Shown here: piece by piece, positions 947 to 39,604 of the stretch
Layout: every line of letters begins with the position of its first letter
How positions within the stretch are numbered: the first letter of the stretch is position 1
NCBI GenBank assembly: GCA_030765065.1
Contig: CM060975.1
Location: forward strand, 166,628,993-166,692,992
DNA from: Deroplatys truncata
Taxonomy: Eukaryota; Arthropoda; Insecta; Mantodea; Mantidae
Length of the DNA: 64,000 bases
Direction: 5' to 3'
Notes under the pieces: model-generated
What the model was told of the DNA's origin: nothing
Databases searched by the model: none
Seen by the model: only the letters and a program-made list of their open reading frames with translations
Translations under genes and position numbers: made by a program

Positions 947-1011
947 TATAGTAGCATTTCTCGCCATGCTGTGTTAAATGCATGAAGTCGACAAACAGTG
1001 CTAGTGTAGTC

Positions 1012-1046
<35 letters not shown>
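1012..1046. repeat. ATT trinucleotide microsatellite
   Basis: About eleven TTA/ATT units. On the minus strand they add a poly-Asn run to the LINE reverse transcriptase frame without closing it. Confidence 0.95.
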
Positions 1047-12629: not shown

Positions 12630-12980
12630 TGGACCATTTAATTTGCGAGTTCAATATCTCCAAAACTAAGCGTTGTAGAAAGAAATGTATTGAATAAAAG
12701 TTGCTTGATATTATGGGGAGAAAGTAAATGCCATTAGTAGTGTTTTATTTGGAGTTTATTGCAATGGTCATTTTAGGGTAAATTTAAATTCACCCTAATT
12801 GTAGGTTCCCATTTAAAAAAATTAAAGTGATCCTAAAATTACCATCATAACATCCTGCAAACAAAACACGACTAATGGTATTTGCATTACACCACAATAT
12901 GAAGCAATTTTTATTAAAGACATTTATTTCTACAACGCTTAGCTCTACAGATGTTGTACAATCTCAAATTAAGTGGTCCA
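12630..12980. mobile_element. MITE-like element with ~150-bp terminal inverted repeats
   Basis: The outer ends read TGGACCATTTAATTTG on the left and, reverse-complemented, TGGACCACTTAATTTG on the right. The match continues inward with indels over about 150 bp: CTAAGCGTTGTAGAAA, AATAAAAGTTGCTTGATATT against AATAAAAATTGCTTCATATT, then CCATTAGTAGTGTTTT against CCATTAGTCGTGTTTT. Only about 40 bp separate the arms. Nothing is coded. The target duplication is not clear and the superfamily cannot be assigned. Confidence 0.75.
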
Positions 12981-20960: not shown

Positions 20961-22080
20961 TATACTGTATTTCCAGGAGTAATTAATTCATTTCTGTAGT
21001 ACCTAGTCCGGTATATGAGAATCAGTCCGACTCACTATACACGTAACAGACATGCTTATCCATAATTATTTTCTTGTATACCACAAATAGATATATGTTA
21101 TACTACAAATTAACACTGTAGATAATATATTTAAAACATTTATTAAAATTATTCACACCTGTGTTCATTATAACCAAAGTTATACACATGCATCCCACCC
21201 AAGGCATTATGGGAACATGTTTGCCCTGCCAACATAGTTCGGGACTGAGGGCCCTAAGCCTCAAAGCGTAACCGGGGAAGTCTTTTATAAATAGAGGACA
21301 GGGCGTAGCCGTAGGATCTATGAAGCTAAATCCCTACATCACTTTCGTAGCGTTTTCAAATGTTGGCATCATAGATTTACCGACCTTTAGCCGATTACTT
21401 CTGCAGCCTTTCACCAGCTTCCGTTTCAAAATGGAGTCAGCTTCTCCTATATAAATTTTGTTGCTAAAAGAGGTGGATGGTTGAGTGGGTTAGACGATTT
21501 CGTTTGGGCAACATCTAGTGCATAAATTGTTTCATTTTAATTCAGATTATTGTACATGCGTTCTGTTCTCGATTTCGTAAATATTATTAGTTTTGGTAAA
21601 AAAAAGAAATTATTCATGTCTTGAAGGACAAATTTTTCTAAGTCCCATAAGGCACAACGCCTTGTTTACACCATAAGCAATATAGTTGTGTAGCCGCTGT
21701 AGGAAGTTGTACGCTTTACTAAACAAGCTACCTTCCCTGTGTATTTTCTGTAGAGCTGTGACAAACCGCAGGGTACTTCTGTGGTTTAGACCGCAGATAC
21801 GCTTCTCGCATGCAACAAACACATTTTTTTTCTTCTGTTACTAATGTTTAATCAACACATAGTGACTACTTATTTTCAATATACTGCATTTCATACACGG
21901 CATTTGGTAAAGTTCATAATAGAATCGTTACTACAATGCAAAATACGTGCTTCATAATTTCATCATTGTCCCATATCTGTATGTTGTTGGATATACATAT
22001 AAGGGACGGTCTAGGTGTGTTGTGGCATTTTCGATACATTAAACAATGCCGTGACAATATTTTGATTCCTTCTGTGGGGT
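20961..22080. other. No feature seen, apart from a TATA-like box
   Basis: Unassigned sequence upstream of the transposase relic. TTTATAAATAGAGG occurs near 21282 in GC-richer surroundings and could be a core promoter, but no ORF follows. Confidence 0.35.
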
Positions 22081-22081
22081 C

Positions 22082-22311
22082 ATAGGATATCCCCATGCAA
22101 TTGTTCAACTGGTACAGGATAATCATCCTCTCCACATATGTCCAAAGGTTTCAAATTGGTTCTCGGAGCGGCAGGATATCAGAGTCATAGACTGGCCTCC
22201 CTATTCAACAGATCTGAAGCCTAATGAAAATGTGTGGACTGAAGTGAAAAAGGAGTCGCGCTCGAATTTCCCTGTAGATTGGCAAGTAGGAACAAAAAGC
22301 CGGTTCTGGAC
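22082..22311 (+). pseudogene. Tc1-like transposase, upstream part (split by the giant inverted repeat)
   Basis: The frame reads VQDNHPLHICPKVSNWFSER and then VIDWPPYSTDLKPNENVWTE. These are the second catalytic Asp (codon 22118-22120, in QDN) and the third catalytic Glu (codon 22226-22228, in NEN) of a Tc1/mariner-superfamily DDE transposase. I count 35 residues between them, so DD35E-like. Stops further 5' (in 22040-22060) and missing N-terminal domains make it a pseudogene. The frame continues as NFPVDWQVGTKSRFW and then runs into the inverted repeat at 22312. The missing C-terminus lies 17.1 kb downstream at 39445-39604 on the same strand. Confidence 0.85.
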
Positions 22312-22314
22312 CAC

Positions 22315-22530
22315 GGAGAGATGCCGACAAGCGATAAGCTTCTTTGTTCTACGCCGACAAGCCCGCCGGTTCCCTTTGAGGTCTCACATGCCGCCAGGTC
22401 TCGTGTCGCCAGGCCCCGCCCCCTCTCGCTTTGTGTGCTTACCTAATGCCGACAGTGTCTGTGCCGACAGGTCCTACCCCCTCCCCCATGCGTTCTACTG
22501 TGCCGTCCTGACTTGAGGGAATTGTTTTCT
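22315..22530 (+). repeat. Subterminal GC-rich repeats, left end
   Basis: Degenerate repeats built on GCCGACAAG or GCCGACAGG followed by C-rich tracts (CCCCGCCCCCTC or CCTACCCCCTCCCCC) recur here: ATGCCGACAAGCG, ACGCCGACAAGCC, ATGCCGCCAGG, GTCGCCAGGCCCCGCCCCC, ATGCCGACAG and GTGCCGACAGGTCC. The composition is far from the AT-rich interior. Such subterminal arrays are often transposase-binding sites, which is an inference here. Confidence 0.7.
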
Positions 22531-22699
22531 CGAGGCCTACCGCCCCTCGGCATATTAATTAGGTAATGTTCGTCAATCATTTTTTATGACTACTAATGCC
22601 TGCACATTGCATCCTCGAGCAATTAAGTATTTTTTTGATTAATTAATTGTATATGAATTGACCCAAGCGTGAGTGTTAGCGTGTATAAGTAGCGCGCTC

Positions 22700-23058
22700 A
22701 CGGAACAACCCGCCATGTTACGAAATAAACCCTGCAACCTACTTCTGACTGAGGAAAGCGGTTGTCCATTAGCTGACAATGTTAGACGCTTTCACCACAT
22801 TAATAGACTTTTAAGTTTGCATTCCGGATCTGTTTACGTACATTAGCGAACAACAGCCCGGCATGTAATGAAAACCAGCAACCTACTTCTGCCTGGTGGT
22901 AACAGTGACCTCCATTAGCTGACAACGTTAGACGCTTTCACCACATTGGCGAATAACAGCCCGGCATGTAATGAAAAAACCCGCAACCTACTTCTGCCTG
23001 ATGGTAACGGTGACCTCCATTAGCTGACAACGTTAGACGCTTTCACCACATTAGCGAA
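22700..23058 (+). repeat. Three ~100-bp direct repeats upstream of the arm promoter, left arm
   Basis: Units at about 22702-22803, 22850-22948 and 22952-23056 share CAACCTACTTCTG, CCATTAGCTGACAA and GTTAGACGCTTTCACCACAT. The last two are closest. They end about 70 bp before the TATA box of the inward-reading gene. The mirror set is at about 38670-39030. They may act as an enhancer or a protein-binding array, or may only be expansion products. Confidence 0.8.
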
Positions 23059-23126
23059 CAATGTCAGTAATTGTTTTCCTAAGTGCTCTGCACAACTCTC
23101 ACCACTTCAGCTTTTAGCGAGGAAAT

Positions 23127-23134
23127 TATATAAA
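23127..23134 (+). promoter_or_regulatory. TATA box of the inward-reading gene, left arm
   Basis: TATATAAA followed by AGCAGCAGC, about 100 bp upstream of the ATG at 23236. It is conserved in the right arm (38604-38597, minus strand). Confidence 0.65.
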
Positions 23135-23635
23135 AGCAGCAGCTTCTCCAATGATTTTCACACTATCGTAAGAACACTGTGATCTAAGCACTCTGCAAAC
23201 TTTATTCTTTCAACGTGGAAATTACATCCAACATCATGTCTGGTAAGTTGTATCACCAATTCATCTTCATTAAAACGTTAACTTATTACTTAGTACATTT
23301 AACCTATATTTGCGTTCTTGTTTTTAATGACGGACCTTTATTTGTAAATAGCTGAGTATTCTAAAAGTTAATAGCTATACAGTTGAATTTTTCTGAAATG
23401 TGAACAGTTTAGTTAAGTATTCATTTTAGGGAAGCTCATTCTACATTTAATAGCTAACTGCGCGAATTCTCAAAATATGTGAACAATTTAGTTGAGTATT
23501 CATCTTGTTGAGTAATTATTATTCCAGATATTTAAATACAGGATTTCACAGACTGAATTAATTTCCTTTCTAGACAAAATACAATTACTTGAATACCCTA
23601 CGACTCGAATAAAGAATGTTCTGTATAAATATTCT

Positions 23636-23770
23636 TCCAAGGGTAACCGGCGGTATTCGATCCGGGGACTTCATGTTTGCATGCATTGATCGAACATTCA
23701 TCAGTTAATGTTTCATTCCTCTTGTGCATTTTATTTATTAAAAACTTCCAGCCTGTTTCCGTCACGTTAA
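23636..23770 (-). repeat. Short interspersed repeat in intron 1 (partner of 24127-24260)
   Basis: Shares GGACTTCATGTTTGCATGCA, TGATCGAACATTCATCAGTT and CTCTTGTGCATTTTATTTA with 24127-24260. On the minus strand the B-box-like GGATCGAATACC suggests a tRNA-SINE relic. The right-arm copy (about 37990-38090) lacks ~75 bp. Confidence 0.55.
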
Positions 23771-24126
23771 AAGGAGATATTTTCCACGAGTGTGTCGAAT
23801 AATACAAGTGCTTTATTTTGTCATAGAAATTTCTCAGGTGTTTAAAAATACATCGACATTTCGCTGTATAAGCAATGCGCAATAAAGTAAATTAACTTAA
23901 TAATATAACTTTTCTTAAAAAAATAAGTAAATAAATAAATAAATAAAAATCTAACGTGTAAATTAATTACGTTTTTTCAGCATCCAGTTCTGCTAACGTA
24001 TCTGAGACGTACATCCAGCTCCAGCAGGATACCCGCCACCGGCTGCAGGATCGTTCCTCAAATACAGTCATGATTCAGGCACCCGGACAACCGAATGGTA
24101 AGCATTCTTCAGAGTTTAAAAGAACT

Positions 24127-24260
24127 TTCGAGGGTAACCGGTGGTAATCGATCCTAGGACTTCATGTTTGCATGCAATGATCGAACATTCATCAGTTAAC
24201 GTTTCACTCCTCTTGTGCATTTTATTTAGTAAGAACTTCCAGTCTGTTTCCATCACATTA
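24127..24260 (-). repeat. Short interspersed repeat in intron 2 (partner of 23636-23770)
   Basis: Same sequence as the intron-1 copy at roughly 90%. It is kept in the right arm at about 37555-37680. Both copies predate the arm duplication. Confidence 0.55.
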
Positions 24261-24711
24261 AAAATTAACGTTTTTGCTTTAGAATATTACAAAAAGTCTG
24301 TTGCGCGAATCATTCACTCTAACAAAGTAAATGTTTACATTATATTAAAACATTTAAATCGGAAAATATAGTACTTAATGAACTTCATTAGTGAATCAGA
24401 ACCTCAATTATATTTACACATATCATTTTTATTATTATATTATACAGAAAAAAGTTAATAATTTTGTAACTTTCAAATATATGAAATTTAGTTATGCAAC
24501 ACATTCTCTAATAAAGAATATGTTTTTTTCTCTTCCTGATGCAGAAAGTTTGACATCTCAACTTAACACATTGGCTGAGGGTAGCATTTACCCGACCGTT
24601 CAAAGACTACAAGATCTTCAGCCAGAGGAGCCTTATAATATAAAATCCATAAGAAAAATTGATACGAGATACGGTGCTAGAGTGGTTGCAGTTTTAGACA
24701 ATAAGCAAGTG

Positions 24712-25068
24712 AAATTAATGAAATTAATTGTTCCTTCACACAAGCCGTGTGTTGGACAGGGTTGGAAAGGTAGAATCAGGTGACTGAAAAATTCAATGCC
24801 ATAGCCGGGATTTGAACCACGGATCTCCCGGTCTCCGTCCGGTTGCTCTAACCACTGAGCTACCATGGCAACATGCCGACACGACATTAAATTCTCCAGC
24901 TGATTCGCGTTTTTCCCGGTAATCCACAAGGTGATCTCAAATTGTATTGAGATGTCATACCCCAATGGCGACTTACTTTATAGCAAGTACTTTAAGTCCC
25001 GGGCTTTATAGTTGCAACCACTATTAGGTCAATTAATGAAATTAATTGTTCTTTCACACAAGCAAGTG
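24712..25068 (-). mobile_element. SINE-type insertion in exon 3, left arm only
   Basis: Absent from the right arm, where AAGCAAGTG runs straight into TTTCTTCCG. Here AAGCAAGTG appears on both sides (24703-24711 and 25060-25068), a 9-bp target duplication. The insert holds a tRNA-like segment on the minus strand (24798-24869): 7-bp acceptor stem GCCATGG/CTATGGC, D stem GCTC/GAGC, A box TAGCTCAGTGGTTAGAGC, T-loop TTCAAAT, but a mismatched T stem and a C at position 33. Both insert ends carry the same ~33-bp direct repeat containing AATTAATGAAATTAATTGTT (24713-24745 and 25031-25063), as in a dimer-like or circularly permuted SINE. Confidence 0.8.
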
Positions 25069-25269
25069 TTTCTTCCGACAAGATATTCAACCCTAACAAG
25101 CCAACAGTTGGAGGAAATGCCAGGAAAGTTTCAAATGGTATATCATGGTGTAGTACCATCCGGCAAGTTTAAGACATGTAAATTGTCTTTTCTTCCTGTT
25201 AAGGTTTGTAGAAATAATTCAGCTATCCTTTCAAAGCTTCATTTAGAGTTACATTTGTTGAGTTTATAA

Positions 25270-25600
25270 ATTCATACTTCACTAGGATAACATTCATCTA
25301 AAGTATACATCACTGTGTAAATAACGCCTAGGATGTAGTCTGGGCGAGGACCTGCAGAAAGAAGTTTAATAGTCAATTCACTGATTCTTTACCTCAAAGC
25401 AGATACCTACAGCAAGTTGCAAATAATTTCCATTAGGATAGCAGTTGCCAAAGCATAAATCACTGTATTAAAACAAATATGTGTAAATAATGTCTAGATT
25501 GTAGTCTGAGTGATTTCGTACAGAAAGAAGTTTAATACCCTTTGCATTGATTCTCCGCATCGAAGTATATACCTACAACAAGCTACAAATAATGTGAATG
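25270..25600 (+). repeat. ~165-bp tandem duplication in intron 3, left arm
   Basis: Two copies (about 25270-25440 and 25441-25600) share CACTGT, GTGTAAATAA, CAGAAAGAAGTTTAATA and ATACCTACA.CAAG. The same duplication is in the right arm (about 36560-36890), so it predates the arm duplication. Confidence 0.65.
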
Positions 25601-26011
25601 TTTGTTACAGGAATGTCCAGATGAATGTAAATGAAGAGGAAGAAGGAGATAGCCTAAAACAACATGAACAGAAATGTGTTACGAACATTCTCAACATGAA
25701 GAATTGCAGCACCGTGCAGCATGGAACATTTGCGTGTGTAGAATATAGCAATAATATATAAATTATGTACTCATTATTACTGCTATACCTGCCAATACCA
25801 TTGATTTCATAAATAATTTCATAATTGTTTAAAGAAGAATGTATTATCTTAAAACATTGATGCCACATGAAATCTAAACAAAAACTTATTGAACTATTAC
25901 TGAAAGAGACTTGAATAAATGGGAATCTAGAAGCCAGAACCATCTTAATATTGGACTGTATGATATGAGGTGTATAAAAAGATTAATAAAAATGAGGGCT
26001 ATGTAATATAA

Positions 26012-26122
26012 ACAACATTTATTTTTTATAAAACATTATCCTATTACATTCCTTGACAAAAAACCGAACATATTTCCTAAAGACAAAAGTGATAGTCTAG
26101 ACCTTCTAAACATGCAGTTATA
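26012..26122 (-). repeat. Second copy of the zinc-finger gene 3' region, left arm
   Basis: About 110 bp matching 28317-28430: CATTATCCTATTACATTCCT, CATATTTCCTAAAGACAAA and GTGATAGTCTAGAC. It keeps an AATAAA on the minus strand. No zinc-finger coding sequence is attached, so an ancestral second gene copy may have been lost. The mirror copy is at about 36022-36140. Confidence 0.7.
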
Positions 26123-26149
26123 GGGGAAGGGATGCTCTTCTGAAACATT

Positions 26150-26745
26150 AGGCCTCTAGACAGAAGCATTTATAGGGGAGAGATAGGGAATACCAGGGCT
26201 GAATCTAGGCTAGTCAGATGCTAAAGGAGGGAGGGATATGCTTTATACGAGAGAGATAGGGAATACAAGGAAAGATGCTATACTAAAAGGGACTTGAAGG
26301 GTAGAATATGAGCGATATAGCGAACCGAGGAGCGGTATTAGGATAGGAGTTTTGAATGATAGAGTAGGCGTTTATATGCGAGAGATAGGGAATACGAGGG
26401 TCGATGCTAGGCTAGACGGTGTTGAATGAGGGAATGCATCTTATATGAGAGAGGTAGGGGAATATGAGGAGAAGTGCTAGGCTAGTCGGGAAGGTCTGAA
26501 TGACAGAGTATACGTCTATATGGGAAAAGATAGGGAAAACGAAGGTAGGTGCTAGGTTGAGAGAGTCTTCAAGGAGGAAAATGCATTTATATGAGAGCGG
26601 TAGGGCATACGAGGAGAGGTGCTAGTCTAGACATGGTTTGAGGAGTAGAGTATACGTTTATATGGGAGAAATATGGAAAACGGGAGAGATACAAGGATAG
26701 ACAGAGATTGAAGGAGGAGGAATGAAGGTTTATACGGTAATATAG
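26150..26745 (+). repeat. ~75-bp tandem repeats, left arm
   Basis: About eight degenerate units of 70-80 bp, each with TATATGRGAGAGATAGGGAAT, then ACGAGG...GATGCTAGGCTAGA, then a GAATGA or GAAGGAG tract. Mirror array at about 35420-35995. It sits between the small inward-reading gene and the Myb/SANT pseudogene. Confidence 0.75.
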
Positions 26746-27360
26746 AGAGTAACTCGATTATAAAACTTTTCTCATCCAGCGTTACAACACTTTTATATAC
26801 TTATTTTCTAAACCTTACAAACTTTATATATGTTAAACAGTAGTGCGCGAGACGGAGAGGGACAAACAGTATATCGGTTTACGGTGAAGTATACGTCCTA
26901 ACCTATTCCCACCTTGTTTGTTCTGGATCTTCTCATTGTCTATCATCATCTAACGTAACCACGTAACAAGACGTAATACAGGAAATCATACATATGGCAC
27001 ATTAATAAAAAAATAAATAAAGGTATATATAATAAACATAAACAAGTAGACGGAGGGTCATCGATACACAGAAAACCAGGAGTTGTATGTACTGAGACCA
27101 TAGATTAGTATAGGCAAACAACAAAGAAGTGAATTTATAGTGTAAATAGCCTAATATTTTCAAATATTATTATAGTCTAAAAGTATATAACTTAATTATG
27201 TACCGAGTATTGAGAAATAAACGTTATTCATTATTCACTAATCTCAGATCACTGCAATTGTTTTGAATCAATTCACAATTGCTAATGCCATTCAACATTC
27301 ATTTGTCTCTGATACATAAAAAAATTGCAAAATGTAGAAGGACGAAAGCAATAAAAAGAC
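26746..27360. other. Arm spacer, no gene seen
   Basis: AT-rich sequence conserved in the right arm (34800-35415). It has no ORF or domain. It may contain the promoter of the Myb/SANT gene, but nothing is clear. Confidence 0.4.
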
Positions 27361-27367
27361 TCAGGCA

Positions 27368-28004
27368 GCAAATTTTAAGAAAGAAGAGAAAGATATATGA
27401 CCGACATTGTTTTTAGAACACAAATTAGTGTTGAAAATAAAATGACTGATAGCTCTGCTAAGCGTAAGGAAGAGACATGGAAATAAATTGCAAACGAGTA
27501 CAATTCTAGGAAGATCATCCAGTGTGAATGAAAATCCCTGAAATGATATTATGAGAACATAAAGAAAAGAATGAAGCAAGCAAATGCCATTGACAAGGTA
27601 CGATTGTACAAAACTGGAGGCGTATGTATGTACCGCCTTTCTTAGACAATAGTAGCCAAATAACAATTGTTGCTCTTCTATTCAATCGCCAATGAGTTTG
27701 ATGATGAAGTTGGATTCCATTCAGAAGTAATCACCACAGTGAAGGACATTGAAATAGTAAATCCAGATCCAACATGTCATTCAGCAATTCTAATAACAGG
27801 TGAGGAATTTGAAGAAAGAGAAAGTGTAAAGGTAGCGTCTGCAGTTCCCATACAGAACTTTCAACGCCATTGCCTGAAAAGAACAAAGATGGCATAAGGG
27901 GGGGTTTTTATGAGAGGAGGCTTGAGTGTTTGGAAGAAGAGTACACAGTGAAAATGAAGATCTTGAAATTGGAACCAGAAATGAAAGAATCTAAGAAAAA
28001 TTAA
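27368..28004 (+). pseudogene. Myb/SANT-like DNA-binding protein pseudogene, left arm
   Basis: Read through stops, the frames give VENKMTDSSAKRKEETWK, IANEYNSRK, YYENIKKRMKQANAIDKVRL and YKTGG. This is the helix pattern of the insect Myb/SANT-like (FSBP/zeste-type, Myb_DNA-bind_5-like) domain. An acidic middle part follows (ANEFDDEVGFHSEVITTVKD, 27690-27749). After one frameshift comes a C-terminal coiled coil, FYERRLECLEEEYTVKMKIL, ending at TAA 28002-28004. In-frame stops at IANEYN-1, after IIQCE, before YYEN and twice before LLLFYSIANEF kill it. The right-arm copy has the same stops. Many transposons and insect gene families carry this domain, so it does not identify the element class. Confidence 0.8.
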
Positions 28005-28316
28005 GCGTTGTTAGTAACTTATACAACCATAAATATATTACAAAAATGTAATGAAACAGGCAAGGAATAATACGGATAAAGAAACTGTTAAGCAGATCTA
28101 CTACGCTTTCATTTATTTGCACATACTCAAAGTATGGAATTACACTTTCGGGAAATATTGCAGAAATAGACATGAAAAAGATATTTACGCAAAAAATAAA
28201 AAAAGGACTTAAAATATTAGAAAAAGAAGATAAACAGCATTCATGTTAACCAATTTTAAAAAATCAGTTTACCTGAATACCTGTAAAAAACATATCACTT
28301 TACAAAAAGTAATGCA

Positions 28317-28430
28317 GACAACATATATTTTTTATAAACATTATCATATTACATTCCTTCACAAAAAAACCATACATATTTCCTAAAGGCAAAGGTGATA
28401 GTCTAGACATTCTAAACACTCAGTTATATA
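28317..28430 (-). repeat. 3' region of the left-arm zinc-finger gene
   Basis: Partner of 26012-26122. The right arm has a proper AATAAA here (33832-33837); the left arm reads AATATA on the minus strand, so its poly-A signal is mutated. Confidence 0.6.
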
Positions 28431-28588
28431 ATCATATACATCACACAGAAAGAGACCTGCATTATCAGTAAAAAAAACTAAACATCTCAACAATGTCTGA
28501 TTGATGTATTTTATAAGTACAAGTTTTTGATATTTCAAAGTTCCTGTTAACCATGGCCGTAATTGATTAACACAATTTCTCGATCCTG

Positions 28589-29056
28589 TCATGCTATAAT
28601 TTTAGAAGCTTTCAGCTTACTTATAATTTCCTTAATCTCTTGTGTGTGACTATTATTACCAGCATCCCTCGATTCAATTAGTAACCTCAATATATTTACT
28701 AGTCTATTCGGATTTTCAAGCGTAGATATCACTGAATCGTCATCATTTGAAGATTTCATATTCTCGTAACTTCCGATGTATCCAGATTTTTCACCAACAG
28801 TAGTCTCCAGTGAAGGACAGAGGCTTGATCCGGTATAACATTCCCCTCTATACATCTTCGGAGCTTCGAGTGCAGGGGAGAGAGTCGATTCAGTATAACA
28901 TGTTGCTCTATGAAACTTAAATCTTGACAAAGAACGATTCTTAAAAATCCGCCCGCATATACAGCATCTAATAGCGCGTTTTCCTCCATGTGTAATATAT
29001 GAAAAATTGAGTTTCTCATTCGTTAGTGTCACAGATTTTCTCGGGCAGTAGCTCAT
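28589..29056 (-). CDS. 155-aa C2HC zinc-finger protein, left-arm copy
   Basis: An open single-exon ORF starting MSYCPRKSV. It has one zinc-binding pattern, C31-x2-C34-x14-H49-x3-C53, around CCICGRIFKNRSLSRFKFHR; spacing is like BED or C2HC fingers, so DNA binding is likely but inferred. An internal repeat follows: CYTESTLSPALE (53-64) and CYTGSSLCPSLE (73-84). The tail is Leu/Ile/Lys-rich (NRLVNILRLLI... EIISKLKAS) and could form a helix or dimerise. A TATATA lies about 90 bp upstream on the minus strand (29151-29146). The right-arm copy (33103-33570) is also open and differs at eight codons. By my reading only one of the nucleotide changes is silent. The name and partners are unknown. Confidence 0.65.
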   Translation of the reverse strand: MSYCPRKSVTLTNEKLNFSYITHGGKRAIRCCICGRIFKNRSLSRFKFHRATCYTESTLSPALEAPKMYRGECYTGSSLCPSLETTVGEKSGYIGSYENMKSSNDDDSVISTLENPNRLVNILRLLIESRDAGNNSHTQEIKEIISKLKASKIIA

Positions 29057-29145
29057 GCTAAAACTAAAAGAAATTAAATGAATACGTGAATGCTAACGCT
29101 CGAAGGAATTAAAAGCGAATGAATGAATTCATAACACGCAACTAT

Positions 29146-29151
29146 GTATAT
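29146..29151 (-). promoter_or_regulatory. TATA box of the zinc-finger ORF, left arm
   Basis: TATATA within GGGATATATACATAG on the minus strand, about 90 bp upstream of the ATG. It is identical in the right arm (33011-33016). Confidence 0.5.
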
Positions 29152-29375
29152 ATCCCAGAGGAGGACGACGGAGGGAATCGCGATCTGTGCATAGCAGCGG
29201 GAAAGGATGCTCTCTGGAAACACTCGTCATCCGCACAACGGATTGTCCCTAACATTGCCAGATTTCGGACCGTTCAACATCGTGACGCGTCCCTGTCATC
29301 TACATTTCGACGAAATTTTACCTCCTGAATTAAAGTTTGGTGCTCTGTATAGATCTGTACAACATGCATCACGCT

Positions 29376-29466
29376 GTGTGTCCTACCGTTTCCAGCTCCT
29401 GAATCGTCCCAGCTAGTGGACTGCTTCTACCATGTTCATGTCAACGATCTGTTACTCTGAATTAAA
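29376..29466. other. Unpaired junction between left arm and satellite
   Basis: About 90 bp without counterpart on the right side. The word CTGAATTAAAGTTTGG occurs both inside the arm (29325-29340) and again at 29457-29472 just before the satellite, so the junction was rearranged by a local duplication. Confidence 0.6.
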
Positions 29467-32400
29467 GTTTGGTTAGCGTGATCAGATTGTTATATAGCGT
29501 GATTAGGTTGTTACATAGCGTGATCAGGTTGTTACATAGCGTGATCAGGTTGTCACATAGCGTGATCATGTTCTACATAGCGTGATGAGGTTGTTACATA
29601 GCGTGATCATGTTGTTACATAGCGTGATCAGGTTGTTGCATAGCGTGATCATGTTGTTACATAGCGTGATCATGTTGTTACATAGCGTATACAGGTTTTT
29701 ACATAGCGTGATCATGTTCTTACATAGCGTGATCAGGTTGTTACATAGCGTGATCATGTTGTTACATAGCGTGATCAGGTTGTTACATAGCGTGATCATG
29801 TTGTTACATAGCGTGATCATGTTGTTACATAGCGTGATCACGTTGTCACATAGCGTGATCATTTTGTTACATAGCGTTATCATGTTGTTACATAGCGTGA
29901 TCATGTTGATACATAGCGTGATAAAGTTGTTACATAGCGTGATCATGTTGTTACATAGCGTGATCATGTTGTTACATAGCGTGATCATGTTGTTACATAG
30001 CGTGGTCATGTTGTTACATAGCGTGATCAGGTTGTCACATAGCGTGATCATGTTGTTACATAGCGTTATCATGTTGTTACATAGCGTGATCATGTTGTTA
30101 CATAGCGTGATAAGGTTGTTACATAGCGTGATCATGTTGTTACATAGCGTGATCAGGTTGTTACATAGCGTGATCATGTTGTTACATAGCGTGATCATGT
30201 TGTTACATAGCGTGATCAGGTTGTTACATAGCGTGATCATGTTGTTACATAGCGTGATCAGGTTGTTACATAGCGTGATCATGTTGTTACATAGCGTGAT
30301 CAGATTGTCACATAGCGTGATCATGTTGTCACATAGCGTGATCATGTTGTTACATAGCGTGATCAGGTTGTTACATAGCATGATCATGTTGTTACATAGC
30401 GTGATCATGTTGTTACATAGCGTGATCAGGTTGTTAAATAACGTGATCATGTTGTTACATAGCGTGATCATGTTGTTACATAGCGTGGTCATGTTGTTAC
30501 ATAGCGTGATCAGGTTGTTACATAGCGTGATCAGGTTGTTACATAGCGTGATCAGTCTGTTACATAGCGTGATCAGGTTGTTACATAGCGTGATCAGTCT
30601 GTTACATAGCGTGATCAGTCTGTTTTCATAGCGTGATCAGGTTGTTACATAGGGTGATCATGTCATTACATAGTGTGATTATGTTGTTACATAGCGTGCT
30701 TATGTTGTTACATAGCGTGATCATGCTGTTACATAGCGTGATCAGGTTGTTACACTGCGTGATGAGGTTGTTACATAGCGTGATCAGGTTGTTATATAGC
30801 GTGATCATGTTGTCACATAGCGTGATCAGGTTGTCACATAGCGTGATCATGTTGTCACATAGCGTGATCATATTGTTACATAGCGTGATCAGGTTGTTAC
30901 ATAGCGTGATCAGGTTGTTACATAGCGTGATCAGTCTGTTACATAGCGTGATCAGGGTGTTACATAGCGTGATCAGTCTGTTACATAGCGTGATCGATCT
31001 GTTACATAGCGTGATTAGGTTGTTACATAGCGTGATCATGTTGTTACATAGCGTAATTATGTTGTTACATAGCATGTTTATGTTGTTACATAGCATGATC
31101 AGGTTGTTACATAGCGTGATCAGGTTGTTACATAGCGTGATCATGTTGTTACATAGCGTGATCCGGTTGTTACATAGCGTGATCCGGTTGTTACATAGCG
31201 TGATCATGTTGTTATATAGCGTGATCATGTTGTTACATAGCGTGATGAGGCTGTTACCTAGCGTGATCAGGTTGTTACATTGCGTGATCATGTTGTTACA
31301 TAGCGTGATCATGTTGTAACATAGCGTGATGAGGCTGTTACATAGCGTGATAATGTTGTTACATAGCGTGAATAGGTTGTTACATAGCGTTATCAGGTTG
31401 TTACATAGCGTGATCATGTTGTTACATAGCGTGATCAGGTGGTTACATAGCGTGATCATGTTGTTACATAGCGTGATCATGTTGTTACATAGCGTGATCA
31501 GGTTGTTACATAGCGTGATCATGTTCTTACATAGCGTGATCATGTTGTCACATAGAGTGATTATATTGTCACATAGCGTGATCAGGTTGTTACATAGCGT
31601 GATCACGTTGTTACATAGCGTGATCATGTTGTTACATAGCGTGATCATGTTATTACATAGCGTGATCATGTTGTCACATAGAGTGATTATATTGTCACAT
31701 AGCGTGATCAGGTTGTTACATAGCGTGATCATGTTGTTACATAGCGTGATCATGTTGTTACATAGCGTGATCATGTTATTACATAGCCTGATCAGGTTGT
31801 TACATAGCGTGATCAGGTTGTTACATAGCGTGATCATGTTTTTACATAGCGTGATCAGGTTGTTACATAGCGTGATCAGTCTGTTACATAGCGTGATCAG
31901 GTTGTTACATAGCGTGATCATGTTGTTTCATAGCGTGATGAGGCTGTTACATAGCGTGATCAGGTTGTTACATAGCGTGATCATGTTGTTACATAGCGTG
32001 ATCAGGTTGTTACATAGCGTGATCATGTTGTTACATAGCGTGATCATGTTGTTACATAGCGTGATCATGTTGTTACATAGCGTGATCAGGTTGTTACATA
32101 GCGTGATCATGTTGTTACATAGCGTGATCAGTCTGTTACATAGCGTGATCAGGTTGTTACATAGCGTGATCATGTTGTTACATAGCGTGATCAGGTTGTT
32201 ACATAGCGTGATCAGGTTGTTACATAGCGTGATCATGTTGTTACATAGCGTGATAAGGTTGTTACATAGCGTGATCAGGTTGTTACATAGCGTGATTAGG
32301 TTGTTACATAGCGTGATCATGTTACATAGCGTGATCATGTTGTTACATAGCGTGATCAGGTTGATACATAGCGTGATCATGTTGTTACATAGCGTGATCA

Positions 32401-32797
32401 GGTTGTTACATAGCGTGATCAGGTTGTTACATAGCGTGATCATGTTGTTACATAGCGTGATCAGGTTGTTACATAGCGTGATCATGTTGTTACATAGCGT
32501 GATCAGGTTGTTACATAGCGTGATCATGTTGTTACATAGCGTGATCAGGTTGTTACATAGCGTGATCATGTTGTTACATAGCGTGATCAGGTTGTTACAT
32601 AGCGTGATCATGTTGTTACATAGCGTGATCAGGTTGTTACATAGCGTGATCTGGTTGTACATAGCGTGATCATGTTGTTACATAGCGTGATCATGTTGTT
32701 ACATAGCGTGATCTTGTTGTTGCATAGCGTGATCATGTTGTTACATTGCGTGATCAGGTTGTACATAGCGTGATCATGTTGTTACATAGCGTGATGC
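29467..32797 (+). repeat. 21-bp minisatellite (~158 units), core of the palindrome
   Basis: A head-to-tail array with the 15-nt core TACATAGCGTGATCA plus a variable T/G and GTTGT, total 21 bp. Units differ by single changes. The T/G position alternates strictly near 32380-32645, giving a 42-bp higher-order unit; elsewhere it is irregular. A 126-bp (six-unit) segment is duplicated (CATAGAGTGATTATATTGTC at 31551 and 31677). Because 21 is divisible by 3, long ORFs (up to 447 aa, heptads such as LLHSVIM or ITLCNNM) open on both strands; these are a by-product of the period. The right arm begins inside a final unit (AGCGTGATGCATG), so the array may have grown from an arm-end sequence. Confidence 0.97.
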
Positions 32798-33010
32798 ATG
32801 TTGTGCAGATCTATACAGAGCACCAAACTTTAATTCAGGAGGTAAAATTTCGTCGAAATGTAGATGACAGGGACGCGTCACGATGTTGAACGATCCGAAA
32901 ACTGGCAATGTTAGGGACAATCCGTTGTGCGGATGACGAATGTTTCCAGAGAGCATCCTTTCCCGCTGCTATGCATAGATCGCGATTCCCTCCGTCGTCC
33001 TCTTCTGGGA

Positions 33011-33016
33011 TATATA
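33011..33016 (+). promoter_or_regulatory. TATA box of the zinc-finger ORF, right arm
   Basis: TATATA within GGGATATATACATAG, about 90 bp upstream of the ATG at 33103. Confidence 0.5.
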
Positions 33017-33102
33017 CATAGTTGCGTGTTATGAATTCATTCGCTTTTAATTCCTTCGAGCGTTAGCATTCACGTATTCATTTAATTTCTTTTAGTTTTA
33101 GC

Positions 33103-33570
33103 ATGAGCTACTGCCCGAGAAAATCTGTGCAACTAACGAATGAGAAACTCAATTTTTCATATATTACACATGGAGGAAAACGCGTTATTAGATGCTGTAT
33201 ATGCGGGCGGATTTTTAAGAATCGTTCTTTGTCAAGATTTAAGTTTCATAGAGCAACATGTTATACTGAATCGACTCTCTCTCCTGCACTCGAAGATCCG
33301 AAGATGTATAGAGGGGAATGTTATACCGGATCAAGCCTCTGTCCTTCACTGGAGACTACTGTTGGTGAAAAATCTGGATACATCGGAAGTTGCGAGAATA
33401 TGAAATCTTCAAATGATGACGATTCAGTGATATCTACGCTTGAAAATCCGAATAGACTAGTAAATATATTGAGGTTACTAATTACATCGAGGGATGCTGG
33501 TAATAATAGTCACACACAAGAGATTGAGGAAATTATAAGTAAGCTGAAAGCTTCTGAAGTTATAGCATGA
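33103..33570 (+). CDS. 155-aa C2HC zinc-finger protein, right-arm copy
   Basis: Same ORF as 29056-28589, reading outward from the satellite. The zinc ligands C31, C34, H49 and C53 and the internal CYT..S.L...LE repeat are kept. Differences from the left copy are T10Q, A28V, a later A to D, Y to C, E to T, two K to E and I to V. It has an AATAAA poly-A signal at 33832-33837, unlike the left copy. A 69-aa ORF (33567-33776) overlaps its stop codon by ATGA and is probably 3' UTR. Expression is unknown. Confidence 0.65.
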   Translation: MSYCPRKSVQLTNEKLNFSYITHGGKRVIRCCICGRIFKNRSLSRFKFHRATCYTESTLSPALEDPKMYRGECYTGSSLCPSLETTVGEKSGYIGSCENMKSSNDDDSVISTLENPNRLVNILRLLITSRDAGNNSHTQEIEEIISKLKASEVIA

Positions 33571-33831
33571 CAAGATCGAGAAATTGTGTTAATCAATTAC
33601 GGCCATGGTTAACAGGAACTTTGAAATATCAAAAACTTGTACTTATAAAATACATCATTCAGACATTGTTGAGATGTTTAGTTTTTTTTACTGATAATGC
33701 AGGTCTCTTTCTGTGTGATGTATATGATTATATAACTGAGTGTTTAGAATGTCTAGACTATCACCTTTGCCTTTAGGAAATATGTATGGTTTTTTTTTGT
33801 GAAGGAATGTAATATGATAATGTTTATAAAA

Positions 33832-33837
33832 AATAAA
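33832..33837 (+). terminator. Poly-A signal of the right-arm zinc-finger ORF
   Basis: AATAAA about 260 bp after the stop codon. The left-arm equivalent is AATATA. Confidence 0.5.
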
Positions 33838-34155
33838 TGTTGTCTGCATTACTTTTTGTAAAGAGATATGTTTTTTACAGGTATTCAGGTAAACTGATTT
33901 TTAAAAATTGGTTAACATGAATGCTGTTTATCTTCTTTTTCTAATATTTTAAGTCCTTTTTCTATTTTTTGCGTAAATATATTTTCATGTCTATTTCTGC
34001 AATATTTCCCGAAAGTGTAATTCCATACTTTGAGTATGTGCTAATAAATGAAAGCGTAGTATATCTGCTTAACAGATTCTTTATCCATATTATTCCTTGC
34101 CTGTTTCATTACATTTTTGTGATATATTTATGGTTGTATAAGTCATTAACAACGC

Positions 34156-34795
34156 TTAATTTTTCTTAGATTCTTTCATTTCTAGTTCCAATTTCAAGAT
34201 CTTCATTTTCACTGTGTACTCTTCTTCCAAACACTCAAGCCTCCTCTCATAAAAACCCCCCTTATGCCACCTTTGTTCTTTTCAGGCAATGGAGTTGAAA
34301 GTTCTGTATGGGAACTGCAGACGCTACCTTTACACTTTCTCTTTCTTCAAATTCCTCACGTGTTTTTAAAATTGCTGAATGACATGTTGGATCTGGATTT
34401 ACTATTTCAATGTCCTTCACTGTGGTGATTACTGATGAATGGAATCCAGCTTCATCATCAAACTCATTGGCGATGGAATAGAAGAGCAACAATTATTATT
34501 TGGCTACTATTGTCTAAGAAAGGCGGTACATACATACGCCTCCAGTTTTGTACAATCGTACCTTGTCAATGGCATTTGCTTGCTTCATTCTTTTCTTTAT
34601 GTTCTCATAATATCATTTCAGGGATTTTCATTCACACTGGATGATCTTCCTAGAATTGTACTCCTTTGCAATTTATTTCCTTGTCTCTTCCTTACGCTTA
34701 GCAGAGCTATCAGTCAGTTTATTTTCAACACTAATTTGTGTTCTAAAAACAATGTCGGTCATATATCTTTCTCTTCTTTCTTAAAATTTGCTGCC
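34156..34795 (-). pseudogene. Myb/SANT-like DNA-binding protein pseudogene, right arm
   Basis: Mirror of 27368-28004 with the same in-frame stops after the SAKRKEE, IIQCE and SLK positions and before LLLFYSIANEF. It also has its own changes (for example the Trp of KEETWK is lost by TGG to AGG). Shared lesions show the gene was already dead when the arms were copied. Confidence 0.8.
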
Positions 34796-35419
34796 TGAGT
34801 CTTTTTATTGCTTTCGTCCTTCTACATTTTGCAATTTGTTTATGTATCAGAGACAAATGAAAGTCGAATGGCATTAGCAATTGTGAATTGATTCAATACA
34901 ATTGCAGTGATCTGAGATTAGTGAATAATGAATAACGTTTATTTCTCAATACTCGGTACATAATTAAGTTATATACTTATATACTATAATAATATTTGAA
35001 AATATTTGGCTATTTACACTATAAATTCACTTCTTTGTTGTTTGCCTATACTAATCTATGGTCTCAGTACATACAACTCCTGGTTTTCTGTGTATCGATG
35101 ACCCTCTGTCTACTTGTTTATGTTTCATTATATATACCTTTATTTATTTTTTTATTAAGGCGCCATATGTATGATTTCCTGTGTTACGTCTTGTTACGTG
35201 GTTACGTTAGATGATGATAGACAATGAGAAGATCCAGAACAAACAGGTGGTAATAGGTTAGGACGTATACTTCACTGTAAACTGATATACTGTTTGTCCT
35301 TCTCCGTCTCGCGCACTACTGTTTAACATATATAAAGTTTGTAAGGTTTAGAAAATAAGTATATAAAAGTGTTGTAACGCTGGATGAGAAAAGTTTTATA
35401 ATCGAGTTATTCTCTATAT

Positions 35420-35995
35420 TACCGTATAAACCTACATTCCTCCTCCTTCAATCTCTGTCTATCCTTGTATCTCTCCCGTTTTCCATATTTCTCCCATATA
35501 AACGTATACTCTACTCCTCAAACCATGTCTAGACTAGCACCTCTCCTCGTATGCCCTACCGCTCTCATATAAATGCATTTTCCTCCTTGAAGACTCTCTC
35601 AACCTAGCACCTACCTTCGTTTTCCCTATCTTTTCCCATATAGACGTATACTCTGTCATTCAGACCTTCCCGACTAGCCTAGCACTTCTCCTCATATTCC
35701 CCTACCTCTCTCATATAAGATGCATTCCCTCATTCAACACCGTCTAGCCTAGCATCGACCCTCGTATTCCCTATCTCTCGCATATAAACGCCTACTCTAT
35801 CATTCAAAACTCCTATCCTAATACCGCTCCTCGGTTCGCTATATCGCTCATATTCTACCCTTCAAGTCCCTTTTAGTATAGCATCTTTCCTTGTATTCCC
35901 TATCTCTCTCGTATAAAGCATATCCCTCCCTCCTTTAGCATCTGACTAGCCTAGATTCAGCCCTGGTATTCCCTATCTCTCCCCTATAAATGCTT
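35420..35995 (-). repeat. ~75-bp tandem repeats, right arm
   Basis: Mirror of 26150-26745, with the same order of units and only scattered differences. Confidence 0.75.
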
Positions 35996-36021
35996 CTGTC
36001 TAGAGGCCTAATGTTTCAGAA

Positions 36022-36140
36022 GAGCATCCTTTCCCCTATAACTGCATGTTTAGAAGGTCTAGACTATCACTTTTGTCTTTAGGAAATATGTTCGGTTTTT
36101 TGTCAAGGAATGTAATAGGATAATGTTTTATAAAAATAAA
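36022..36140 (+). repeat. Second copy of the zinc-finger gene 3' region, right arm
   Basis: Mirror of 26012-26122, with GTCTAGACTATCAC and AAATAAATGTTGT. Direct partner of about 33740-33845 in the same arm. Confidence 0.65.
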
Positions 36141-36523
36141 TGTTGTTTATATTACATAGCCCTCATTTTTATTAATCTTTTTATACACCTCATATCATAC
36201 AGTCCAATATTAAGATGGTTCTGGCTTCTAGATTCCCATTTATTCAAGTCTCTTTCAGTAATAGTTCAATAAGTTTTTGTTTAGATTTCATGTGGCATCA
36301 ATGTTTTAAGATAATACATTCTTCTTTAAACAATTATGAAATTATTTATGAAATCAATGGTATTGGCAGGTATAGCAGTAATAATGAGTACATAATTTAT
36401 ATATTATTGCTATATTCTACACACGCAAATGTTCCATGCTGCACGGTGCTGCAATTCTTCATGTTGAGAATGTTCGTAACACATTTCTGTTCATGTTGTT
36501 TTAGGCTATCTCCTTCTTCCTCT

Positions 36524-38495
36524 TCATTTACATTCATCTGGACATTCCTGTAACAAACATTCACATTATTTGTAGCTTGTTGTAGGTATATACTTCGATG
36601 CGGAGAATCAATGCAAAGGGTATTAAACTTCTTTCTGTACGAAATCACTCAGACTACAATCTAGACATTATTTACACATATTTGTTTTAATACAGTGATG
36701 CATGCTTTGACAAGTGCTATCCTAATGGAAATTATTTGCAACTTGCTGAAGGTATCTGCTTTGAGGTAAAGAATCAGTGAATAGACTATTAAACTTCTTT
36801 CTGCAGGTCCTCGCCCAGACTACATCCTAGGCGTTATTTACACAGTGATGTATACTTTAGATGAATGTTATCCTAGTGAAGTGTGAATTTATAAACTCAA
36901 CAAATGTAACTCTAAATGAAGCTTTGAAAGGATAGCTGAATTATTTCTACAAACCTTAACAGGAAGAAAAGACAATTTACATGTCTTAAACTTGCCGGAT
37001 GGTACTACACCATGATATACCATTTGAAACTTTCCTGGCATTTCCTCCAACAGTTGGCTTTTTAGGGTTGAATATCTTGTCGGAAGAAACACTTGCTTAT
37101 TGTCTAAAACTGCAACCACTCTAGCACCGTATCTCGTATCAATTTTCTTATGGATTTTATATTATAAGGCTCCTCTGGCTGAAGATCTTGTAGTCTTTGA
37201 ACGGTCAGGTAAATGCTACCCTCAGCCAATGTGTTAAGTTGAGATGTCAAACTTTCTGCATTAGGAAGAGAAAAAGAACAATTTTCTTTATTAGAGAATG
37301 TGTTGCATAACTAATTTTCATATATTTGAAAGTTGCAAAATTATTAACTTTTTTCTGTATAATATAATAATAAAAATGATAATATGTGTAAATATAATTG
37401 AGGTTCTGATTCACTAATGAAGTTCATTAAGTACTATATTTTCCGATTTAAATGTTTTAATATAATGTAAACATTTACTTTGTTAGAGTGAATGATTCGC
37501 GCAACAGACTTTTTATAATATTCTAAAGCAAAAACGTTAATTTTTAATGTGATGGAAACAGACTGGAAGTTCTTACTAAATAAAATGCACAAGAGGAGTG
37601 AAACATTAACTGATGAATGTTCGATCATTGCAAGCAAACATGAAGTCCCAGGATCGATTACCACCGGTTACCCTCGAAAGTTCTTTTAAACTCTGAAGAA
37701 TGCTTACCATTCGGTTGTTCGGGTGCCTAAATCATGACTGTATTTGAGGAACGATCCTGCAGCCGGTGGCGGGTATCCTGCTGGAGCTGAATGTACGTCT
37801 CAGATACGTTAGCAGAACTGGATGCTGAAAAAACGTAATTAATTTACTCGTTAGATTTTTATTTATTTATTTACATATTTTTTAAAGAAAAGTTATATTA
37901 TTAAGTTAATTTACTTTATTGCGCATTGCTTATACTGGGAAATGTCGATGTATTTTTAAACACCTGAGAAATTTCTATGACAAAAGTTTTTACTAAATAA
38001 AATGCACAAGAGGAATGAAACATTAACTGATGAATGTTCAATCAATGCATGCAAACATGAAGTCCCCGGATCGAATACCGCCGGTTACCCTCGGAAGAAT
38101 ATTTATACAGAACATTCTTTATTTGAATCGTAGGGTATTCAAGTAATTGTATTTTGTTTAGAAAGGAATATAATTCACTCTGTGAAATCCTGTATTTAAA
38201 TATCTGGAATAATAATTACTCAACAAGATGAATACTTAACTAAATTGTTCACATTTTTTGAGAATTCGCGCAGTTAGCTATTAAATGTAGAATGAGCTTC
38301 CCTAAAATGAATACTTAACTAAACTGTTCACATTTCAGAAAAATTCAACTGTATAGCTATTAACTTTTAGAATACTCAGCTATTTACAAATAAAGGTCCG
38401 TCATTAAAAACAAGAACGCAAATATAAGTTAAATGTACTAAGTAATAAGTTAACTTTTTAATGAAGATGAATTGGTGATACAACTTACCAGACAT
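36524..38495 (-). pseudogene. Four-exon gene for a ~149-aa protein, right-arm copy (stop and frameshift)
   Basis: Minus-strand exons 38495-38489, 37824-37708, 37255-36955 and 36547-36524 mirror the left-arm gene with conserved splice sites. Exon 3 is not interrupted by the SINE, but codon 35 in exon 2 is TAG in place of CAG (minus strand 37729-37727), and one A is missing in the A run of exon 3 near 37145, shifting the frame before the TRYGARVV block. So this copy is broken independently of the left-arm copy, and no intact copy exists in the window. Confidence 0.75.
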
Positions 38496-38596
38496 GATGT
38501 TGGATGTAATTTCCACGTTGAAAGAATAAAGTTTGCAGAGTGCTTAGATCACAGTGTTCTTACGATAGTGTGAAAATCATTGGAGAAGCTGCTGCT

Positions 38597-38604
38597 TTTA
38601 TATA
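38597..38604 (-). promoter_or_regulatory. TATA box of the inward-reading gene, right arm
   Basis: TATATAAA on the minus strand, about 100 bp upstream of the ATG at 38495. Mirror of 23127-23134. Confidence 0.65.
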
Positions 38605-38667
38605 ATTTCCTCGCTAAAAGCTGAAGTGGTGAGAGTTGTGCAGAGCACTTAGGAAAACAATTACTGA

Positions 38668-39030
38668 CATTGTTCGCTAATGTGGTGAAAGCGTCTAACG
38701 TTGTCAGCTAATGGAGGTCACCGTTACCATCAGGCAGAAGTAGGTTGCGGGTTTTTTCATTACATGCCGGGCTGTTATTCGCCAATGTGGTGAAAGCGTC
38801 TAACGTTGTCAGCTAATGGAGGTCACTGTTACCACCAGGCAGAAGTAGGTTGCTGGTTTTTCATTACATGCCGGGCTGTTGTTCGCTAATGTATGTAAAC
38901 AGATCCGGAATGCAAACTTAAAAGTCTATTAATGTGGTGAAAGCGTCTAACATTGTCAGCTAATGGACAACCGCTTTCCTCAGTCAGAAGTAGGTTGCAG
39001 GGTTTATTTCGTAACATGGCGGGCTGTTCC
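38668..39030 (-). repeat. Three ~100-bp direct repeats upstream of the arm promoter, right arm
   Basis: Mirror of 22700-23058 with the same three units. Confidence 0.8.
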
Positions 39031-39194
39031 GTGAGCGCGCTACTTATACACGCTAACACTCACGCTTGGGTCAATTCATATACAATTAATTAATCAAAAA
39101 AGAACTTAATTGCTCGAGGATGCAATGTGCAGGCATTAGTGGTCATAAAAAAATGTTTGACGAACATTACCTAATTAATTTGCCGAGGGGCGGC

Positions 39195-39420
39195 AGGCCT
39201 CGAGAAAACAAATCCCCCAAGTCAGAACGCCACAGTAGAACGCATGGGGGAGGGGGTAGGACCTGTTGGCACAGACACAGTCGGCATTAGGTAAGCACAC
39301 AAAGCGAGAGGGGGCGGGGCCTAGCGACACGAGACCTGACGGCAAATAGTAGAGCACAAAGAGGGGGCGGGGCTTGTCGGCGTAGAACAAAGAAGCTTAT
39401 CGCTTGTCGGCATCTCTCTG
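39195..39420 (-). repeat. Subterminal GC-rich repeats, right end
   Basis: Mirror of 22315-22530 and slightly longer. Read on the minus strand it has an extra stretch CTCTTTGTGCTCTACTATTT between two GCCGACAAG/GCCGTCAGG units that the left arm lacks or has replaced. The GGGGGCGGGG and GGGGGAGGGGGTAGG tracts could also form G-quadruplexes. Confidence 0.7.
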
Positions 39421-39444
39421 TGTGCTTAAACATACATTTCTATT

Positions 39445-39604
39445 ACTACTTGGGCAAAGTACAAAAGATGGCTTCTGGGCACAAATTAAAGACGTATGGG
39501 ATGTTCGAGCTTCTCGTTCACGTTACTACAGGGATTTAATTTCATCTACAACCCGAAAATTGAGGGCGGTTATTAGTGCTCAGGATTCATACACCCTATA
39601 TTAA
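39445..39604 (+). pseudogene. Tc1-like transposase, C-terminal part
   Basis: The frame reads STKDGFWAQIKDVWDVRASR and YYRDLISSTTRKLRAVISAQ, ending DSYTLY and TAA at 39602-39604. This is the standard C-terminus of Tc1-like transposases (W..I.+.W......YY..L+.S...R++AVI.A....T.Y). It completes the fragment at 22082-22311. The first ~30 bp (GGCAAAGTACAAAAGATGGCTT) resemble the last ~30 bp of the left fragment, so the target may have been partly duplicated. Confidence 0.8.

Follow-up and report, generated by a model that had tools for sequence, protein, structure and literature searches.

Within a 64,000-nucleotide stretch of the genome of the mantis Deroplatys truncata (assembly GCA_030765065.1, contig CM060975.1, positions 166,628,993 to 166,692,992; hereafter the window) lies a palindromic block of 17,166 bp. 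This block is best read, at a probability of roughly 0.74, as a non-autonomous palindromic derivative of the Maverick/Polinton transposons, copied as self-complementary DNA with helper enzymes supplied in trans. Ends and integration make the kinship with Mavericks/Polintons firm; how the element replicates is a guess, though a supported one. The block is placed in this group because of its 6-bp target duplications, its AGTAG ends and the sharing of these ends with genomic copies that carry Maverick core genes. It is filed as a non-autonomous derivative, since end motif, duplication and size fit but ten open reading frame (ORF) pieces of one such copy, named C10, gave no match in its arms. Comparison with the window's own assembly (4.29 Gb, 818 contigs) indicates that the block belongs to a family: palindromic elements derived from Mavericks are a genuine class and an abundant one.

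Insertion site and termini

The element interrupts a remnant of a Tc1-like transposase gene, with the following arrangement.

22055..22284, plus strand: host site, 5' part of the interrupted Tc1-like transposase remnant (Pfam DDE_3, E 2.1e-8)
22279..22284: left target-site duplication, TTGGCA (5/6 bases as in the right copy)
22285..39450: complete element of 17,166 bp, a palindromic and non-autonomous Maverick/Polinton derivative (AGTAG termini, flanking frame resumes)
39451..39456: right target-site duplication, TGGGCA
39457..39604, plus strand: host site, 3' part of the same Tc1-like transposase remnant, up to its stop

When the flanks are joined at the duplication, the Tc1-like frame runs on to its stop codon; the right flank part alone matched no Pfam family. 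The joined peptide of 68 residues was scored at 150 genomic loci, and the two best relatives, with many others, align to it without a gap over 68 codons (204 bases), at identities of at most 78%. This gap-free alignment reproduces the empty site. Thus, the window block is a single insertion with a 6-bp target duplication, and the choice between insertion site and inversion breakpoint, left for checking by an earlier sequence-only reading of the window, falls to the insertion site. Joined Tc1 peptides scored against an IS630 model did not separate alternative joins, and a direct similarity test between the two flanks scored below shuffles. Fold-back is reported to create inverted duplications in many genomes, and an inverted segmental duplication or inversion breakpoint, with no mobile element, would be its product here; this explanation has practically no chance of being right, as the joined frame fits its paralogues exactly and the empty-site test contradicts it, target duplications are present and inverted gene pairs recur at no fewer than 108 loci (see below).

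The termini were defined by comparison with other copies. Similarity between the arms stops at 22312 and 39422, the limits given by the sequence-only reading, but these are not the true ends, since other genomic copies place the termini at 22285 and 39450. The terminal motifs are AGTAGG on the left and AGTAGT on the right, and an AGTAG terminus is present in 10 other called family copies (end comparison; the script sought AGTAG after the motif had first been noticed by eye). Target duplications of 6 bp were tallied in 13 copies, the window's and 12 others (copies C16f and C16g being left out), and match at 6/6 bases in seven and at 5/6 in four, including the window. The outermost ~30 bp are unlike between the two ends (22285-22311 versus 39423-39450), and the element is slightly longer than the sequence-only reading had it. 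These outermost bases read AGTAGGAACAAAAAG... and AGTAGTAATAGAAATG..., two different family end types, whereas the two ends of the 10 other called copies are alike in 18-25 of the first 25 bases. Since its ends come from different family end variants, the window copy is a recombinant. A candidate duplication, TTCTGG at 22304 and 39473, was dropped once other copies showed the AGTAG terminus. In copies C5a, C14, C4 and C9 both ends reach further out (on the left by 238-392 bp) and finish in another AGTAGG... terminus, again bordered by 6-bp duplications; the family thus has alternative outer and inner termini.

Core-gene relatives and the palindrome family

Intact vertebrate Mavericks are reported with 6-bp duplications, with (AGT)2 or (AG)3 ends, (AGT)2 being the commonest, with lengths of 12.7-24.6 kb and with terminal inverted repeats of 46-1,447 bp (PMC8097293). 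A gene set and a size of 15-20 kb are given for the Maverick/Polinton group (PMC4028283), whose members encode a protein-primed polymerase and a retroviral-type integrase (PMC6431247). In the mantis genome, copies C4 and C10 have the ends of the window family but inverted repeats of only ~1.0 and 0.7 kb, respectively, and long ORFs. Their end region is common to that of the window element at about 90-94% identity; positions 22319-23096 match one side of C10 at 94.0% (from 22364) and fall inside a longer match of 94.5% on its other side. Ten ORF pieces of C10 were scanned with Pfam. They include a double-jelly-roll capsid (3.4e-108), a phospholipase A2 (1.5e-12), a Pox_A32 ATPase (1.1e-6), an rve integrase (2.7e-8) and a DNA_pol_B_2 polymerase (1.6e-11), while four of the ten, the presumed protease among them, matched no Maverick family at gathering score. 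In C4 the capsid gene occupies two frames, phospholipase and ATPase are also encoded, the integrase falls just short of the gathering score (rve 1.2e-6) and the polymerase is a short remnant only. C4 and C10 are Maverick/Polinton copies. The C10 integrase was scored at 127 genomic loci, at 97-100% identity and stop-free in 126; such numerous and similar copies mean that the spread of the family through the mantis genome is recent.

None of the ten C10 ORF pieces, integrase included, has a match in either arm of the window element at E 0.01. No transposase was recognised inside the element by this comparison or by Pfam on some of the window ORFs, in agreement with the sequence-only reading. Matches to the core-gene copies occur along the arm. 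Positions 22319-24127 match the end of C10 beyond its polymerase ORFs (94.5%), 28864-29215 match C4 near its integrase gene (94.6%) and 26371-26980 match C4 at 88%. Two small genes are carried in each arm, a spliced gene (gene A) and a zinc-finger-like gene (gene B). The tail of gene B resembles the tail of an ORF in C4, C10 and another copy, C6 (83-85%), and exon 2 of gene A is also found in C10 and C6. Exon 3 of gene A occurs, among the pieces examined, only in the window element, C9 and C5a, with a diverged relative in C5b. The arm as a whole is a mosaic.

Copies of the palindrome were sought by end and by gene. With the first 500 bp of the block, at least 43 matches exceeding 400 bp were listed, counting the two in the window itself; the true number may be higher, as 40 of 3,866 loose candidates were scored. 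Thirty of the 43 listed matches form 15 inverted pairs, the window's among them, with spacings of 9.9-17.4 kb for 14 pairs and of 54.8 kb for one. Other copies with the same termini, which the sequence-only reading had proposed to look for, therefore exist. Fourteen of the end pairs were retrieved for the end comparison, and seven of the first ten are palindromes (C5a, C9, C7, C16a, C14, C16b and C16c); C5b is only partly inverted, with 2.4-kb arms and an unlike centre, and the remaining two are the core-gene copies C4 and C10. The gene searches agree. Exon 3 of gene A forms at least 60 pairs with neighbours within 25 kb, all of them +/- and none -/+ or same-sense among the listed loci, and gene B forms at least 52 neighbour pairs, all -/+ among the listed loci. 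Inverted pairs of one or the other gene mark at least 108 genomic loci, again a lower bound, drawn from the best-scoring loci only. Eight palindromes allowed a comparison of two nested pairs, and their coordinate sums differ by 0-4 bases. The window element and C9 lie at different sites, each with its own duplication, but agree in their asymmetric centre (spacer on the left, array in a single orientation, right arm joined at the same point), and therefore the palindrome itself is the mobile unit.

Three unusual arrangements of family ends were also seen. The 54.9-kb interval G000:C16:370537459-370592310 lies between family ends with a 6/6 duplication, and has inner-arm material on one side only in the examined pieces; it was possibly enlarged by nested insertions. 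Tandem ends are found at G000:C16:256919917-256921860, where head-to-tail end regions lie ~485-525 bp apart, and at L040 267-1316, where the end region occurs twice, head-to-tail.

Arm identity and the proposed route of replication

The main parts of the palindrome are listed below.

22285..29379, plus strand: left arm, including a ~350-bp SINE-like insertion (self-comparison, alignment)
29380..29473, plus strand: 94-bp spacer, left of the array only (same arrangement in copy C9)
29474..32804, plus strand: 21-bp tandem array, ~159 copies, 3,331 bp, single orientation
32784..39450, minus strand: right arm (self-comparison, alignment)

Self-comparison of the window aligns 22312-29379 with 39422-32784 in inverted orientation. 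In the global alignment of the arms, 137 mismatches (71 transitions and 66 transversions) occur over 6,629 aligned bases, an identity of 97.9%, close to the ~97% first estimated; a 70-bp piece of the left arm is missing from the right arm. The central tandem array of 3.3 kb was likewise correctly described. Arrays of the 21-bp unit lie near the centre in six of the seven other palindromic copies (C5a, C9, C7, C14, C16b and C16c, not C16a).

Arms are more alike within a copy than between copies. Over 3,981 columns, those of the window element, C9 and C5a are 98.6-98.7% identical within each copy and 97.0-97.8% identical between copies, and each pair is joined with an ultrafast bootstrap (UFBoot) of 100. 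The pairs of C7, C16c, C16b, C16e and C14 are joined with UFBoot values of 93-99, and that of C9 with 88 in the second data set. Both arms thus group together in all eight copies put into trees (one segment is missing from the data for one C16c arm and for C4). In two palindromes chosen for their symmetry, the arms are identical at 1,200/1,200 sampled bases each, and the two copies are 99.67% identical to one another; these symmetric, identical-arm copies were all drawn from lists of best-scoring loci. Collectively, arm identity looks like the state of a copy at or near its birth.

The same element and family could have arms kept alike by gene conversion after integration instead of by self-complementary copying. 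In its favour, mismatches are over-dispersed along the arms of the window element, C9, C5a and C7, and four bins of the window element (25562-26561) hold a single mismatch over 999 aligned positions, where the average is ~2%. This alternative is nevertheless rather unlikely. The two palindromes with fully identical arms over the bases sampled differ from each other, nested coordinates are symmetric within 0-4 bases in eight palindromes from the best-scoring lists, and neither the SINE nor the frame lesions of gene A in the window element were passed to the opposite arm. Some later conversion is likely, as mismatches are spread unevenly along the older arms. Palindromes are also a known artefact of some long-read libraries, and an assembly artefact from hairpin-shaped reads has to be weighed. 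It is extremely improbable, given that the arms differ by 2%, that the SINE lies in one arm only, that target duplications border the termini and that centres vary among copies, although the argument from arm difference does not reach the two identical-arm copies.

Self-complementary copying with helper enzymes is what we infer for the family. The palindrome itself probably arose when the 21-bp array folded back on an inverted near-copy of its unit at the inner arm end. This arm end reads ACAACATGCATCACGCT, one base longer than the corresponding stretch of the array-unit complement, and in the window element and C9 the right arm runs directly into the array at this near-copy. The integrase and the protein-primed polymerase of the core-gene copies would act on the element ends in trans, and both ends would serve as replication origins. 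A displaced single strand would then fold into a hairpin and be completed from its own complementary half. Each cycle would equalise the arms, so that new copies would leave with identical arms, and these would diverge after insertion, like the two long terminal repeats (LTRs) of a retrovirus.

Several observations weigh against the proposal of a Maverick derivative copied in this way. The target duplication of the window element matches at 5/6 bases only, and two of the 13 copies gave no called duplication. In short segments, the nearest relative of an arm is the other arm of its own copy in only 26/30, 7/12, 13/18, 6/14 and 4/4 cases. Arm mismatches are clustered in the window element (chi2 79.9 on 25 degrees of freedom, partly from the variant outer end), as they are in C9 (45.1 on 26), C5a (81.9 on 27) and C7 (69.6 on 23). 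Neither exon 3 of gene A nor the 21-bp unit (at 17/21 or more, ungapped) turned up in the examined pieces of C4, C10 and C6; an ungapped search of this kind omits the inverted near-copy of the unit, because of its extra base. An arm does not simply correspond to one half of a core-gene copy, so that its origin requires recombination in several steps. Finally, the movement of the element is read, and its replication route proposed, from genome sequence.

Arm genes, known systems and biological meaning

From the end inwards, each arm consists of a ~0.8-kb end region, gene A, 145-bp repeats, a Myb/SANT pseudogene, gene B and the array. The features inside the arms are the following.

22319..23096, plus strand: end region common to core-gene copies, with GCCGACA motifs, GC boxes and 105-bp repeats
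23236..25634, plus strand: gene A, small spliced gene, left copy (SINE-interrupted; exon limits by eye)
23236-23242, 23981-24097, 24545-24711 plus 25060-25203, and 25611-25634, plus strand: exons of the left gene A (by eye)
24712..25059, minus strand: tRNA-Ser-like short interspersed element (SINE) inserted in the left arm (no counterpart in the aligned right arm)
26353..26682, plus strand: 145-bp repeats, left arm
27442..27621, plus strand: Myb/SANT pseudogene, left arm (Pfam Myb_DNA-bind_5, E 6.9e-6)
28592..29056, minus strand: gene B, zinc-finger-like ORF, left arm, 155 aa (open in both arms)
33103..33567, plus strand: gene B, right arm, 155 aa
35477..35808, minus strand: 145-bp repeats, right arm
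36524..38495, minus strand: gene A, right copy (limits by eye; with a stop of its own and the loss of one base)

Of the three genes in the arms, two are small and of unassigned function, and the third was already dead when the family began to spread. The sequence-only reading had noticed the small spliced gene, the Myb/SANT pseudogene, the zinc-finger ORF, internal repeats and GC-rich subterminal repeats. Its description of the arms as gene-bearing holds for the family, across which the spliced gene and the zinc-finger-like gene are open, but both copies of gene A in the window are broken. Exon 3 of gene A (68 codons) is stop-free in all 150 scored loci, the best of 6,525 candidates, and gene B is stop-free in 150/150, the best of 7,088. 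The zinc-finger ORF is open in both window arms, as had been claimed, although for gene B, as for gene A, no Pfam family reaches gathering score. Against PDB sequences gene A gave a single chance-level match (E 1.7), and a GTDB scan with it gave none. No IMG/VR match was found for gene A, gene B, the Tc1 peptide, the element end or the array unit, and a search of a phage collection gave no match. The SINE at 24712-25059 lies in gene A of the left arm; short direct repeats mark its termini and, as judged by eye, its insertion apparently duplicated 8 bp.

The Myb/SANT match stands as the pseudogene it was taken for, with stops in both arms. These stop codons are identical in the two window arms, and the same two TGA and one TAA recur in 147/150 scored genomic loci (the query carried X at the stop positions); its death therefore preceded the spread of the family. 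That the open genes are uniform need not point to selection acting now, because the dead SANT copy is equally uniform, and their stop-free state can be explained by recent spread. In exon 3 of gene A, 11 codons vary among five arms.

Elsewhere in the window, a 350-bp self-inverted repeat at 12630-12980 (75% alike) is possibly another palindromic remnant. An inverted pair outside the element (19826-20205/40507-40881, 78%) is asymmetric to it and is probably another dispersed repeat. Remnants of reverse transcriptases resembling those of long interspersed elements occur at 942-1622 (minus strand, RVT_1 E 2.4e-8) and 7663-8043 (plus strand, 8.9e-6, below gathering score).

Among known systems, Mavericks/Polintons are the closest in AGT-type ends, 6-bp duplications, similar length and, in this genome, ends common to core-gene copies; the present element differs from them by the lack of any core-gene ORF match, by its ~7-kb arms and by a palindrome with a central tandem array. 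The sequence-only reading had proposed a foldback-like mobile element with duplicated genes. The shape, with long composite inverted repeats containing internal tandem repeats, the mobility and the gene duplication all stand; the kin are Maverick/Polinton, not foldback (FB, Mutator) or Galileo (P). Galileo, of the P superfamily, resembles it in form. Its longest copy in Drosophila willistoni is described with two long arms (4,246 and 4,680 bp), internal tandem repeats, other transposable elements inside and no transposase (PMC4168063). Galileo is reported with 7-8-bp duplications, with a P-type transposase elsewhere in the family and with this single longest copy, whereas here at least 108 loci and Maverick ends are found, with neither a 7-8-bp duplication nor kin encoding a P-type transposase among the copies examined. 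Tm1, of Mutator type, and Tetris have composite arms with tandem repeats, and the terminal bases of Tm1 are reported as non-inverted; they differ by duplications of 8-10 bp, by the filing of Tm1 under Mutator/Foldback and, in the published account, by complete Tetris copies without conserved ORFs (PMC3169594, PMC4079207). In the mantis element duplications are of 6 bp and the end-sharing kin carry an rve integrase. A true foldback element of Mutator/FB or P/Galileo type that captured Maverick-like ends would account for very long inverted arms with internal tandem repeats and no transposase, as Galileo reaches 4.2-4.7-kb arms without one (PMC4168063). It is very improbable, in view of the 6-bp duplications, shorter than those reported for Tm1 (8-10 bp), Tetris (8-10 bp) and Galileo (7-8 bp), of the AGTAG ends and of the sharing of these ends with copies encoding rve, PolB and capsid.

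Two likenesses lie outside these groups. The snapback sub-genomes of adeno-associated virus (AAV), self-complementary partial genomes with part of the viral genes (PMC8235507), are the nearest analogue found; AAV is described as a parvovirus of ~4.7 kb and not as an integrated transposon family, so that the likeness is one of mechanism only. Teratorn of fishes uses both external and internal termini for integration (PMC6431247), to be compared with the two end types here; it is a giant piggyBac-like/herpesvirus element and unrelated. A palindromic Maverick/Polinton was not found among the papers listed in the literature searches (open-licence papers, no preprint server), which is not proof of absence; the earlier suggestion that the element is possibly undescribed thus agrees with this search.

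It is tempting to go beyond a mere deletion derivative and to propose that the palindromes are satellites of Mavericks, an idea that is possible, if doubtful. Each would be a self-complementary linear replicon with two genes of its own in duplicate, borrowing the polymerase, the integrase and perhaps the capsid of a helper, and the 21-bp core, as hinge of the fold-back, would both create and maintain the palindrome. The replication of animal Mavericks is inferred mainly from gene content. If its two halves are recopied from each other, so large a family would preserve in the genome a trace of self-complementary replication and of parasitism on a virus-like transposon. Divergence between arms could serve as a clock for each insertion, as it does for LTRs. 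Every copy also contains its own control, since two genes that were open in the founding lineage stand beside a dead one with constant stops.

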